Of a DNA stretch of 32,762 bases, positions 4,390-9,147 are shown one piece after another. The notes beneath the pieces are model-generated. The model was not told where the DNA came from, did no database searches, and saw nothing but the letters and a program-made list of their open reading frames with translations. The stretch comes from a bacterium. GTDB lineage: Bacteria; Patescibacteriota; Minisyncoccia; UBA6257; GWB1-50-10. Both the position numbers and the translations under genes were made by a program. Numbering within the stretch: position 1 is the first letter of the stretch; every line of letters starts with the position of its first letter. Location: contig JAKANQ010000001.1 of NCBI GenBank assembly GCA_021812365.1, positions 1 to 32,762 of the forward strand, read 5' to 3'.

Positions 4390-5460
4390 ATGACCGATAT
4401 TCTTACTCTTCTTTTATTCATTATCTTCGTTGCGCTCATTGCGGGATTCATTCTGTTATTTCGGGCGCTGAAGAAAAAAGATGAGCCGCAAGATGCACAA
4501 TCACTTGTACTTTTGCAAAATCAGATTCAAGAATTGAATCGCACATTGGATTCGAAACTTGGTGAATCGACTAAGTTCATTCAGTATCAGCATAGCGAAT
4601 CGGCGAAGCTCATTCGCGATGTGACTGAACGCCTCACGAAGCTTGATGAGACCAACAGACAGGTGGTCAGTTTTACCGACCAACTTCAATCGCTCCAGGA
4701 TATTTTGAAGAATCCGAAGCAGCGAGGTGTACTTGGTGAGTATTATCTCGAAACGCTTTTGAAAAATGTATTGCCGACAGGGAGCTATGAGGTTCAATAC
4801 CATTTGGGCATCGATGAGAAGACGAATAAAGAACTCATTGTGGACGCGGTAGTGTTCGTAAAAGATAAGATAATTCCCATCGATTCGAAGTTTTCGCTCG
4901 AAAATTATAATCGCCTTGCGGAGGAGAAGGATCCCGTGGAACGTGAGCGATTAGAAAAATTATTCAAGACAGACCTTAAGAATCGCATTGATGAGACGGC
5001 GAAGTATGTGCAGCCAAAGAAGGGAACGATGGATTTTGCATTTATGTTCATTCCGCATGAAGCGATCTACTACGACCTTCTTATCGCGCAAGTGGGGGCG
5101 GCAAAGGTGAATACGCGAGACCTCATTGAATACGCATTTAAGGAGAAGCATGTGATCATCGTTTCTCCCACGTCGTTCCTTGCATATCTTCAGACGGTAC
5201 TTCAGGGATTGAAGGCGATGCAGATAGAGGAATCAGCGAAGGATATCATCAAACGTGTAGGGGAGTTGGAGCGCCATATTGGAAGTTATGAGTCCGCAAT
5301 GCAGAAGTTGGGCAACAACCTTGGTTCTTCGGTAAATGCCTTCAATGCGGCATATAAAGAATTCGGCAAAATAGATAAGGATGTGATGAAGATCACGGAT
5401 GGTGTTTCGAAAGTCGAGCCGATGATACTTGAAGGCCCCACGCATCGTGAAGAGGAGTAG
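4390..5460 (+). CDS. rmuC: RmuC-family DNA recombination protein
   Basis: N-terminal TM, coiled coil, and QRGVLGEYYLETLLKNVLP / VDAVVFVKDKIIPIDSKFSLENY. Confidence 0.9.
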   Translation: MTDILTLLLFIIFVALIAGFILLFRALKKKDEPQDAQSLVLLQNQIQELNRTLDSKLGESTKFIQYQHSESAKLIRDVTERLTKLDETNRQVVSFTDQLQSLQDILKNPKQRGVLGEYYLETLLKNVLPTGSYEVQYHLGIDEKTNKELIVDAVVFVKDKIIPIDSKFSLENYNRLAEEKDPVERERLEKLFKTDLKNRIDETAKYVQPKKGTMDFAFMFIPHEAIYYDLLIAQVGAAKVNTRDLIEYAFKEKHVIIVSPTSFLAYLQTVLQGLKAMQIEESAKDIIKRVGELERHIGSYESAMQKLGNNLGSSVNAFNAAYKEFGKIDKDVMKITDGVSKVEPMILEGPTHREEE

Positions 5461-6346
5461 TGAAAAAGCAATAAAAGATCTCTTTGCATTATATGGCGCA
5501 TTCGGGCGTCCGCTTTCGCTTGTGGAGATTCTTATCCGCATTCCTTCCGAGGTGTGCGCTCCCGAAGAGGTGTTCAAATGGTTAGATGATTCAGTTGTGT
5601 CCGGAAAGCTTATCACCGAAGAAGGATTCTATTGGAAAAAAGAATTTCCACTTTCCGGGACGAAGAGGAAGACGCAGGATCTCTACTTAGACTCAAAATG
5701 GAAGAAGCTTCAAACACTTTCCGGATGGTTCAGACACGTTCCTTTTTTTGAGTTTGTGATGGCGAGTGGCTCTCTTTCATTCGGTAATGTGAATCCCAAT
5801 TCGGATTTTGACGTGGTGACAGGAGTGAGGGAGAGGAGGATATTTACCGCGCGTTATCTTGCGAGCGCACTTTTTTCCGTGCTTCATGCGCGAAGACTTG
5901 ATGACCTGCAGGCAAGCAGTCCCGATAAGTTATGTTTCAATCACTTCATCACGAAGTCGACTTATTCCAAGCCACCATATAATTACTATCGGAAAGAGTT
6001 GTATCGTAATATGATTCCGCTTTGGTGCAATGGGACCTCGTGTGAAGAATTTGTCCAGATGAATGAGTGGTCTGGAATCACAAAAGACGCATTGTTGGAT
6101 CTGCATTGCGCGCGAAAAGGGAAAAGCGCGTTTGCGAAGAGTATTGAATGGATGCTTAGCGGTGTGGTAGGGGATTTTGTAGAACGGCGAATCGCGCGTC
6201 CTATCGCAATGAAGAGGCTTTCCGCGTATCTTTCTCGAAAAGCTGACGCATCAAATGAGGCCGGCGAGAGGGTCATCATACATGATGAAGAACTTGAATT
6301 TCACTTTGTTCTGAATTACGAAAAGAAGTTTGAAGGATTGGGATAG
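5429..6346 (+). CDS. nucleotidyltransferase-fold protein
   Basis: GSLSFGNVNPNSDFDVV resembles the GS...SDxD motif; N-terminus uncertain (TTG 5429 or GTG 5447). Confidence 0.7.
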   Translation: MKAPRIVKRSSEKAIKDLFALYGAFGRPLSLVEILIRIPSEVCAPEEVFKWLDDSVVSGKLITEEGFYWKKEFPLSGTKRKTQDLYLDSKWKKLQTLSGWFRHVPFFEFVMASGSLSFGNVNPNSDFDVVTGVRERRIFTARYLASALFSVLHARRLDDLQASSPDKLCFNHFITKSTYSKPPYNYYRKELYRNMIPLWCNGTSCEEFVQMNEWSGITKDALLDLHCARKGKSAFAKSIEWMLSGVVGDFVERRIARPIAMKRLSAYLSRKADASNEAGERVIIHDEELEFHFVLNYEKKFEGLG

Positions 6347-6362
6347 GGGAAATGGATAGGGC

Positions 6363-6391
6363 TTGCATTTTTCAGCGAAGTGTGATATATT
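6363..6391 (+). promoter_or_regulatory. extended -10 promoter TTGCAT-N17-TATATT (TGaTATATT)
   Basis: Direct reading; consensus spacing. Confidence 0.65.
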
Positions 6392-6397
6392 TCAAAC

Positions 6398-6504
6398 GTT
6401 GAGCAGTGCAGGAGTCTTCTTGGTGGGTAGATATTAATTTATTTGGCTGTTTAGGAAGATTCCAATCTGATTCCAATCCCGTCGCAAGGCGGGATTGGTT
6501 TTTT
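6398..6504 (+). ncRNA. candidate ~107-nt sRNA or transcription attenuator upstream of secA
   Basis: Starts after the promoter at 6363-6391 and ends in a strong terminator; internal 11-bp stem 6411-6421/6453-6463; perfect tandem GATTCCAATC at 6458 and 6469. Confidence 0.5.
6473..6504 (+). terminator. strong rho-independent terminator
   Basis: CCAATCCCG-TCGCAAGG-CGGGATTGG-TTTTTT. Confidence 0.8.
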
Positions 6505-6523
6505 ATTAGACGGATGATATACT
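6495..6523 (+). promoter_or_regulatory. secA promoter TTGGTT-N17-TATACT, extended -10
   Basis: Direct reading; the -35 overlaps the 3' arm and U-tract of the preceding terminator. Confidence 0.6.
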
Positions 6524-6540
6524 CTAAAAGAGCTGATTTT

Positions 6541-6628
6541 ATTGGGTTGTAGGAGCGATTGCGGATGCGCACTCGCTCAACAATAAAAAAATTGGAGGTC
6601 ACCACCGCAGTCGCTCTTGCAACCTAAT
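6541..6628 (+). promoter_or_regulatory. secA leader hairpin enclosing an upstream ORF
   Basis: ATTGGGTTGTAGGAGCGATTGCGG (6541-6564) pairs with CCGCAGTCGCTCTTGCAACCTAAT (6605-6628) over 24 positions, 20 Watson-Crick and 4 G-U. Confidence 0.7.
6565..6627 (+). CDS. candidate leader peptide MRTRSTIKKLEVTTAVALAT
   Basis: ATG-to-TAA, AGGAG at 6551-6555, stop 12 nt before the secA ATG. Confidence 0.45.
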   Translation: MRTRSTIKKLEVTTAVALAT

Positions 6629-6639
6629 ACAGCCATTTT

Positions 6640-9147
6640 ATGTTCACTTTTTTATCGAAACTATTCAAAGACAGCAATATAAAGCGCCTTCAGGGCGTTA
6701 TTTTGAGCATAAACGAGCTTGAGGAAGAAATTACAAAGCTTTCCGACGATGAGTTAAAAGTGGAGTCCGAGACGCTTAAAAAGAAGATTCAGGCGAATTC
6801 TGAGGAGATGGAGTCTGAACTCACTGAGGTACTTCCAAGAGCATTCGCGCTTGTTCGCGAGGCAAGCCGTAGAACACTCGGTCAGCGTCATTTTGATGTT
6901 CAGCTTATCGGAGGTGCGGTGCTTCACGAAGGAAAGATAGCTGAGATGTTGACGGGAGAGGGAAAAACATTGACTGCCACGTCCGCGGTATATTTGAATG
7001 CGCTTACAGGCAAGGGCGTTCATGTGGTTACCGTGAACGATTATTTGGCTCGTCGTGATGCGGTATGGATGGGGCAGATCTATGATGCTCTTGGACTTTC
7101 TGTTTCGTGTATTGTGCATGATACCGCATATCGGTACGATCCGAAGTTTGAATCCGCGGAATTAGATAAGGAACGCGATGAGGTTGGCGGATTCCGTGTA
7201 GTGGAAAAGTTCTTGCGCCCCATCACAAGAAAAGAGGCGTACGCATGCGACATCACATACGGTACGAATCACGAATTCGGATTTGATTTCTTGCGTGACA
7301 ATTTGGCACTTGTGCTTGCCGATCGTGTACAGCGCCCTCATTATTTTGCGATCATTGATGAGGTGGATAGCATTCTTATCGATGAGGCGCGTACGCCACT
7401 CATCATCGCCGCTCCTGATGAAGAATCGAGTGAATACTACCGAACATTTGCAAACGTTGTTGCTCGTCTCAACCCAGAAGAAGATTATGTTGTGGATGAG
7501 AAGCTTCGCACTGTTTCAATCACAGAGCCCGGTATTGAGAAGGTTGAGAAGGCATTACACATCGAAAATATCTTCTCGCCGGAAAGTTCTCGCCTTGTGC
7601 ATTTTTTGCAGGAGAGTTTGAAGGCGAAGGCATTATTCCGCAGAGACAAGGAATATCTTGTAAGAAACAGTGAGGTGCTCATCGTTGATGAGTTCACGGG
7701 GCGCGTGCTGCAAGGGCGTCGTTATTCAGGTGGCCTTCATCAGGCAATCGAGGCAAAGGAGGGGGTGGAAGTGAAGAAGGAAAATCGTACCTATGCTCAG
7801 ATAACGATTCAAAACTATTTCAGATTATATAAGAAGATAGCGGGCATGACAGGAACCGCGCAAACATCCGCGGAAGAATTTCATAAAGTATATGGATTGG
7901 ATGTGGTCAGTATTCCTGCAAACAGGCCGCTTGTGCGCAAAGATTTACCCGATCTTATCTATAAATCAAAAGATGCAAAATATCGTGCGATTGCGGAGGA
8001 TATCAAGGAGCGCCATGCGTTGGGCCAGCCGATACTTATCGGTACCACTTCCATCGCGAACAACGAGATAGTCTCTCAGTATCTCGCGAGCGCACACATC
8101 CCTCATGAAGTGTTGAACGCAAAGAACAATGAGCGCGAAGGTGCCATCATCGCTCAGGCGGGCCGCATAGGTGCGGTGACAGTGGCTACCAACATGGCGG
8201 GCCGCGGTGTTGATATTTTGCTTGGAGGCAATCCACGCAACGATGAGGAGGCGAAGAAGATAGTGGAATTGGGAGGACTTTACGTGATAGGTACTGAGCG
8301 CCATGAAGCGCGCCGTATTGATAACCAATTGCGAGGGCGCGCAGGCAGACAAGGCGACCCTGGCGCATCTCGCTTTTTCCTTTCTATGGAGGATGATCTT
8401 ATGCGTATTTTCGGCGGAGACAGAATAAAGAATTTGATGCAGATGGTGAATCTTCCTGAGGATGTGCCGATTGAGTCAAAGATGGTTTCGCGCGCGGTGA
8501 ATCAGGCACAGCAAAAAGTTGAGGGAAATAATTTCGATGTGCGCAAACACCTGCTCGAATTCGATGATGTGTTGAATAAGCAACGAACTTCGGTATATGC
8601 AAAACGTTCACGTTATCTGGAAGCGGGGGAGAAGGGAGAGGTACTCCCATTAGTGCGTGAATTGCTTGAGCATTTCGTTTCGTTGTATGAAAAGCAGCAC
8701 GCCGCACGAGAAGAATATTCCGAGGAGCAGAACAAGCTTGTAGAAGAAGCGAAAAGTAAGCTTTCACTTATACCCGAATCGGTTGAGAGGGAGCGCTCTA
8801 TAATGCTTGCTCAGCATCTCGTGCGTATCTTGGATATGTTGTGGGTTGAACACTTGGAGAGTCTTGAATCGCTTCGTGAGTCGGTGAATATTCGAGCGTA
8901 TGCCCAGCATGAACCGCTCATAGAATATCGCAGGGAAGCGTATTCCTTGTTCCAACAATTGCAGATGAATTTCGAGCAGTTCACGTTCAATTCGATATTT
9001 GCGCTTTTTGCACTTGATGAGTCAAAGATAAAAGTGACGGAAAAGACTCCTTCGCACGTAGCTCCGGAAGAAGCCAGAGAACTTGGGCGTAACGACCCGT
9101 GCTACTGCGGAAGCGGGAAGAAGTATAAGCATTGTCACGGGAAATAG
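6640..9147 (+). CDS. secA: protein translocase subunit SecA
   Basis: AEMLTGEGKTLTAT, VHVVTVNDYLARRDA, IDEVDSILIDEARTPLI, GRAGRQGDPG and C-terminal SEC-C zinc motif GRNDPCYCGSGKKYKHCHG. Confidence 0.98.
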   Translation: MFTFLSKLFKDSNIKRLQGVILSINELEEEITKLSDDELKVESETLKKKIQANSEEMESELTEVLPRAFALVREASRRTLGQRHFDVQLIGGAVLHEGKIAEMLTGEGKTLTATSAVYLNALTGKGVHVVTVNDYLARRDAVWMGQIYDALGLSVSCIVHDTAYRYDPKFESAELDKERDEVGGFRVVEKFLRPITRKEAYACDITYGTNHEFGFDFLRDNLALVLADRVQRPHYFAIIDEVDSILIDEARTPLIIAAPDEESSEYYRTFANVVARLNPEEDYVVDEKLRTVSITEPGIEKVEKALHIENIFSPESSRLVHFLQESLKAKALFRRDKEYLVRNSEVLIVDEFTGRVLQGRRYSGGLHQAIEAKEGVEVKKENRTYAQITIQNYFRLYKKIAGMTGTAQTSAEEFHKVYGLDVVSIPANRPLVRKDLPDLIYKSKDAKYRAIAEDIKERHALGQPILIGTTSIANNEIVSQYLASAHIPHEVLNAKNNEREGAIIAQAGRIGAVTVATNMAGRGVDILLGGNPRNDEEAKKIVELGGLYVIGTERHEARRIDNQLRGRAGRQGDPGASRFFLSMEDDLMRIFGGDRIKNLMQMVNLPEDVPIESKMVSRAVNQAQQKVEGNNFDVRKHLLEFDDVLNKQRTSVYAKRSRYLEAGEKGEVLPLVRELLEHFVSLYEKQHAAREEYSEEQNKLVEEAKSKLSLIPESVERERSIMLAQHLVRILDMLWVEHLESLESLRESVNIRAYAQHEPLIEYRREAYSLFQQLQMNFEQFTFNSIFALFALDESKIKVTEKTPSHVAPEEARELGRNDPCYCGSGKKYKHCHGK

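Follow-up and report, generated by a model that had tools for sequence, protein, structure and literature searches.

A small RNA encoded upstream of secA in Patescibacteria that probably acts in trans on a single partner, the leader hairpin of the secA operon

Introduction

The Escherichia coli OxyS RNA, a multi-target Hfq small RNA (sRNA) with two hairpin loops, contacts one mRNA, fhlA, at two sites, one of which is near the ribosome-binding region. In the pT181 RNAI/repC system, a perfect antisense RNA that is encoded in cis, on the opposite strand, acts by attenuation. SecM, also from E. coli, is a translation-arrest peptide that acts on secA through its leader.

Here, we analyzed a 32,762-nucleotide stretch of DNA (the window), the source assembly of which is that of a patescibacterium with a small genome (626 kb). 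Upstream of secA, the window carries an sRNA unit that, judging from comparison with relatives, very probably acts in trans and is specific to a single partner, the hairpin in the 5' leader of the secA operon. As for OxyS and fhlA, this would be a two-site, loop-mediated contact of an sRNA with one mRNA; here, however, two single-stranded arms flank a hairpin and pair with one loop, one-to-one and in another phylum. As in pT181, a small RNA bound to a leader hairpin could determine whether that hairpin or a terminator downstream of it forms, but the sRNA is a separate gene with short arms, often adjacent to its partner and sometimes distant from it, and not a cis antisense regulator. The likeness to SecM would lie in an action on secA via its leader, although a conserved arrest-peptide ORF is absent. 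The small SRP RNA (RF00169) is similar in being non-coding and linked to the machinery of protein export; as an identity it was rejected, there being no match to RF00169.

Results

An sRNA unit with its own promoter and terminator lies upstream of secA

The following features were assigned to the sRNA unit (window coordinates):

6363-6391, + strand: sRNA promoter, with a -35 TTGCAT (6363-6368), a 17-nt spacer and an extended -10 TG-N-TATATT (6383-6391)
6398-6504, + strand: sRNA of ~107 nt with both ends predicted, based on the fold z-score and on homologues
6398-6409, + strand: sRNA 5' arm GUUGAGCAGUGC, complementary to positions 6567-6581 in the loop of the secA leader
6411-6463, + strand: sRNA central hairpin, arms 6411-6423 and 6451-6463, 13 bp, from the MFE fold and covariation
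6458-6478, + strand: tandem GATTCCAATC, copies at 6458-6467 and 6469-6478, from the sequence
6460-6466 and 6471-6477, + strand: UUCCAAU within the tandem repeat, which may form a second pairing site with leader AUUGGAG
6473-6504, + strand: sRNA intrinsic terminator, stem 6473-6498 plus T6

An earlier, sequence-only reading of this DNA had proposed most of this architecture, and much of it held. Its extended -10 promoter is read directly at 6363-6391, and the TTGCAT/TATA layout was seen again ahead of homologous units in relatives; the promoter is missing from a generic sigma-70 scan, TTGCAT being a weak -35. The coordinates of its ORF-less transcript of about 107 nt and of the strong terminator were confirmed, with positions 6398-6506 folding at -44.9 kcal/mol compared with -25.0 ± 3.2 kcal/mol for dinucleotide shuffles (z = -6.2; none of 200 shuffles as good). 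The internal stem between 6411 and 6463, which had been put at 11 positions, extends to 13 bp in the fold, and the covariance in relatives that the reading had called for was found, the homologous hairpin covarying in 30 relatives with 0/500 shuffles as good. The secA -35 does sit in the 3' arm of the terminator, which TTGGTT at 6495-6500 overlaps. With its own promoter and terminator and no conserved ORF, the unit thus has the sequence-level attributes of an sRNA. The proposed search of Rfam 15 gave no match for the unit at gathering score, and low-threshold matches were unrelated.

The tandem 10-nt repeat fared less well. It is exact in the window but is not conserved, the closest relative having GAATCCTATC/GGTTCCAATC, so the suggestion that its two copies form mutually exclusive pairings is unsupported. 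The ORF that precedes the sRNA (5429-6346) has no Pfam match; a homologue adjoins the inverted sRNA of genome G026 (locus L071).

The conserved sequence lies in a second structured RNA, the hairpin of the secA leader

Downstream of the sRNA unit, we assigned these features:

6495-6523, + strand: secA leader promoter, -35 TTGGTT (6495-6500) and -10 TATACT (6518-6523), from the sequence
6540-6629, + strand: secA leader hairpin, arms 6540-6564 and 6605-6629, matched by the leader model R1 at 6551-6621 with 80 bits
6567-6581, + strand: leader loop site 1, GCGCACUCGCUCAAC, predicted pairing partner of the 5' arm in the sRNA
6569-6599, + strand: inner helix P2, 6569-6570 and 6572-6574 with 6595-6599 (GC-A-CUC / GAGGU)
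6590-6603, + strand: leader loop site 2, SD-like, nearly invariant (U)UGGAGGUCACC
6640-9147, + strand: secA, with Pfam SecA domains, which the leader precedes in this genome

It is this leader hairpin, and not the sRNA unit first noted, that is conserved in sequence at the level of the family and order. The hairpin (6540-6629) folds with a z-score of -6.7, a -10 box lies directly 5' of its stem in many relatives, and Rfam holds no match to it at gathering score. Across the alignment, which was refitted by a covariance model since MAFFT misplaced stems, variation is free in the stem, whereas the loop is near-fixed as G-N-GCACUC...UUGGAGGUCACC. In 99 sequences, 93.7% of stem cells were paired, with 474 double-change cells (0/500 shuffles as good) and double changes in 13 of the 14 outer-stem pairs; no shuffle or slid control came close to the observed covariation score. 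Cells of P2 were paired at 99.4% in the same sequences, but this helix is nearly invariant and for that reason lies outside the covariation test.

Because the start codon is located ~40 nt past the SD-like loop, the latter is no ordinary SD for secA. Two coding interpretations of the leader were rejected: the overlapping short ORF MRTRSTIKKLEVTTAVALAT, considered as a SecM-like leader peptide, is not conserved in relatives, and neither is the start codon of a putative SD plus start within the loop (UUG/AUG GAG GUC ACC).

Distribution of the leader and the sRNA

The R1 leader model matched 167 of the 244 genomes of this order of uncultured Patescibacteria; of ~283 genomes sampled elsewhere in the phylum, it matched none. 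There is one leader per genome except in G032, where the extra copy is a duplicate at a contig end, and in G204, whose bin has 9% contamination. When the exact leader pattern was run against 84,980 bacterial and archaeal species, 26 contig stretches matched, none of them outside Patescibacteria going by record titles, several of which read only 'bacterium'; the relatives recovered include Jorgensen-, Harrison- and Wolfebacteria and other Parcubacteria. The leader is absent from G001 and G002, of the same genus as the window, where by eye secA directly follows an apparent methionine aminopeptidase gene. Partial second copies of the loop motif (CACTCA...) occur beside the true leader at four loci (L157, L185, L149, L005); they end in TCCCGC rather than GGAGGTCACC and may be decayed duplicates or an inserted repeat.

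The sRNA unit recurs among relatives: a search for the loop complement upstream of leaders recovered, in most relatives bearing the leader, a -10 box, a 5' arm complementary to the loop, a hairpin and a terminator. The unit is in place in G003, while G059, from another genus, has a diverged copy. In G026 it lies between the same two genes on the opposite strand; in G039, G070, G212, G217, G219-G222 and G097 it is on another contig than the leader, and in G040 it is 115 kb away. A loose DNA pattern for the sRNA was dominated by chance matches across the order, and the pattern TTGCATTT-N-GTTGAG, helpful for G000, G003, G026 and G059, gave chance matches too. A second model (R2) was built on a cleaner subset of sRNAs, as MAFFT had misplaced stems among the first 26. 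R2 found one copy in 85/244 genomes of the order, a lower bound given that the model derives from the core-motif type described below and does not detect the divergent sRNA in the genus of the window. Matches occurred in 82 of the 167 genomes with a leader versus 3 of the 77 others (Fisher p = 6e-14). In G176, G218 and G224 the sRNA model matched and no leader was detected; their leaders are possibly diverged.

Two arms of the sRNA covary with the loop of its own leader

In the window, GUUGAGCAGUGC and GCGCACUCGCUCAAC are predicted to form a duplex of 11-12 bp with one bulge at -19 to -20 kcal/mol, which none of 5000 shuffles equalled. Site 2, the second half of the leader loop, is matched by the pre-terminator arm of the sRNA. 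This second match is weak in the window (-6.6 kcal/mol), where both repeat copies are partly within stems, and weaker still in G003; it is strong in families f17 and f21. Elsewhere, changes in the leader are answered in the sRNA, as in the site 1 pairs CACTCACACAAC with GTTGTGTGAGTG (leader and sRNA of G024) and GCACTCACTTATTTT with AAATAAGTGAGTGT (G044), and in the site 2 pairs, here with the sRNA arm first, CUCCUAUUUU and AAAAUAGGAG (G059), CUCUAAUU and AAUUAGAG (G015), UUCCGUUU and AAACGGAG (G053), and GCGAUUUG and CAAAUCGC (G143). Site 2 overlaps the SD-like GGAG in the window's family and mostly stops short of it in others. RNAcofold predicted no contact between sRNA and leader, which is expected since loop pseudoknots are beyond its model.

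Early searches at site 1 had picked sRNAs by complementarity. The covariation test was for this reason repeated on sRNAs recognized by a core motif of the type CGAYGAYRUCGA, found at 38 of 117 leaders (5 in 2340 shuffles). In these 38, the sRNA paired better with its own leader than with others at both site 1 (-15.4 vs. -12.7 kcal/mol; z = -7.1) and site 2 (-13.8 vs. -9.1 kcal/mol; z = -11.7). With columns anchored on the fixed letters, covariation exceeded all 2000 permutations. Permutations inside one family gave p = 0.035 for site 1 and p = 5e-5 for site 2, and those across other families p = 5e-5 for both, the genomes in each case being related. In family f21, too small at n = 6 to be decisive, site 1 was not significant.

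Thirteen of the sRNAs found with R2, likewise chosen independently of complementarity, are remote from the leader, either 2-115 kb away or on another contig of the draft assembly. Both arms again fitted their own leader better than those of other genomes (p = 5e-5 each). That the match is kept with the sRNA inverted, on another contig or 115 kb off indicates action in trans, and, given the fit of remote sRNAs, the match is unlikely to have arisen by local duplication or gene conversion.

Genes and competing hairpins downstream of the leader

In 25 of 116 leaders (3.8 expected), a downstream segment is complementary to the 3' stem arm, in some cases with U-runs behind it. The resulting competing hairpin reaches up to 22 bp; in L178, L158, L137, L162, L022, L180, L191 and others, the downstream segment is a copy of the 5' arm with perfect complementarity to the 3' arm. 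These arrangements suggest attenuation in the lineages that have them, possibly as a terminator/antiterminator switch. No such hairpin was found for the leader of the window, and control there would therefore be at the level of translation or stability.

At 28 of 115 loci, secA is the first ORF after the leader. Other first genes, identified from examples, are often murB, and in some cases hpf (S30AE), rplC or GIY-YIG; first genes other than secA occur at the leader loci of families f17, f21 and f27 and of G004, G027 and G060. In a number of genomes in which secA is not first, it lies ~0.5-2 kb downstream on the same strand, consistent with an operon that includes it.

Neither 4.5S RNA, an Ffh M-domain nor a convincing SRP54/FtsY GTPase was found in 20-39 genomes (G000 and up to 38 relatives), and SRP loss in Parcubacteria has already been reported (PMC4508563).

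Discussion

At the level of sequence comparison, our data show an sRNA unit, two hairpins, two intermolecular pairings and action in trans. From these we infer control of the downstream operon, headed by secA here and by murB or hpf elsewhere. The link to secA made by the sequence-only reading therefore stands, but by a route that it did not contain, namely base pairing with the secA leader hairpin. Of its two options, sRNA or attenuator, the free sRNA is borne out by units that are inverted or distant in relatives, and the termination-controlled leader feeding secA is not.

That second option would make the unit itself the secA leader, with readthrough set by repeats that switch partners. The unit is indeed co-directional with secA and immediately 5' of it, and the secA -35 overlaps its terminator. 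The leader has its own -10 box, however, the repeat is not conserved in G003, and homologous units lie on the opposite strand in G026 and, in other genomes, on separate contigs or at a distance of 115 kb; the fit of such remote sRNAs to their own leaders effectively excludes a cis-attenuator, which we regard as highly improbable. Even less credit is due to the notion that the complementarity is an artefact of chance or inheritance of the conserved GAGUG/CACUC motifs. Although the CACUC/GAGUG core is common to all members, so that part of the pairing is shared, a sRNA's own leader beats others in selection-free, trans-encoded and within-family permutation tests.

Two further readings accept the pairing and are harder to dismiss, yet both appear unlikely. 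A bipartite structural RNA, for example a protein scaffold with incidental effects on downstream genes, could account for loop letters (GCACUC and GGAGGUCACC) that are near-invariant beyond the needs of pairing, and for a leader that precedes unrelated genes in some families. Against this, transcription of the leader seems to run on into the downstream gene, and a competing hairpin follows the leader in roughly one case in four; both features are characteristic of regulation in cis. The leader might instead serve mainly as a sponge that titrates the sRNA from other targets, an idea to which we assign a small probability: it heads different genes in different families and is accompanied by extra partial loop-motif copies at several loci, but each genome has a single leader, which as a rule has a promoter of its own and precedes a gene, and one-to-one covariation with a single site suggests a dedicated pair.

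For the dedicated trans-acting sRNA that we favour, the following mechanism can be proposed. The 5' arm would pair with the first half of the loop (GCACUC...) and the pre-terminator arm with the second (...UUGGAGG), with the sRNA's own hairpin between them. Since the 5'-3' order of the arms is that of their targets, the two helices would cross as a bimolecular pseudoknot, and the leader stem, helix A, sRNA hairpin and helix B may meet as a four-way junction. Pairing at site 1 would have to open P2, which otherwise holds the SD-like GAGGU; an sRNA at GCACUC and P2 are incompatible and could not coexist. We lean slightly towards repression, by blocking or degradation of the leader or by tipping it to the terminator where a competing hairpin exists, over activation through the opening of P2. 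The effect could differ between families, as does the overlap of site 2 with the SD-like GGAG.

sRNA pairing with an mRNA leader is a familiar kind of interaction. A dedicated, order-wide pair with two crossing contacts in one loop is undescribed in Rfam and the literature searched, and that literature held no dedicated sRNA-target pair for Patescibacteria/CPR bacteria. The sRNA and leader constitute two new RNA families with covariance support and a rare natural one-to-one RNA pair, the co-evolution of which can be read over many species of one order.

The pair is single-copy, order-wide and covarying at both contacts, and it is tied to secA in bacteria that lack SRP, in which SecA should bear more of the export load. 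Tentatively, and with somewhat less than even confidence, we envisage a new kind of two-RNA switch in which the sRNA docks by two crossing helices into the loop of the leader hairpin, and the resulting bimolecular four-way junction opens the SD-like, invariant inner helix and also flips a terminator in some lineages. Such a switch may set export and envelope capacity through the secA, murB and hpf operons of this SRP-less order.
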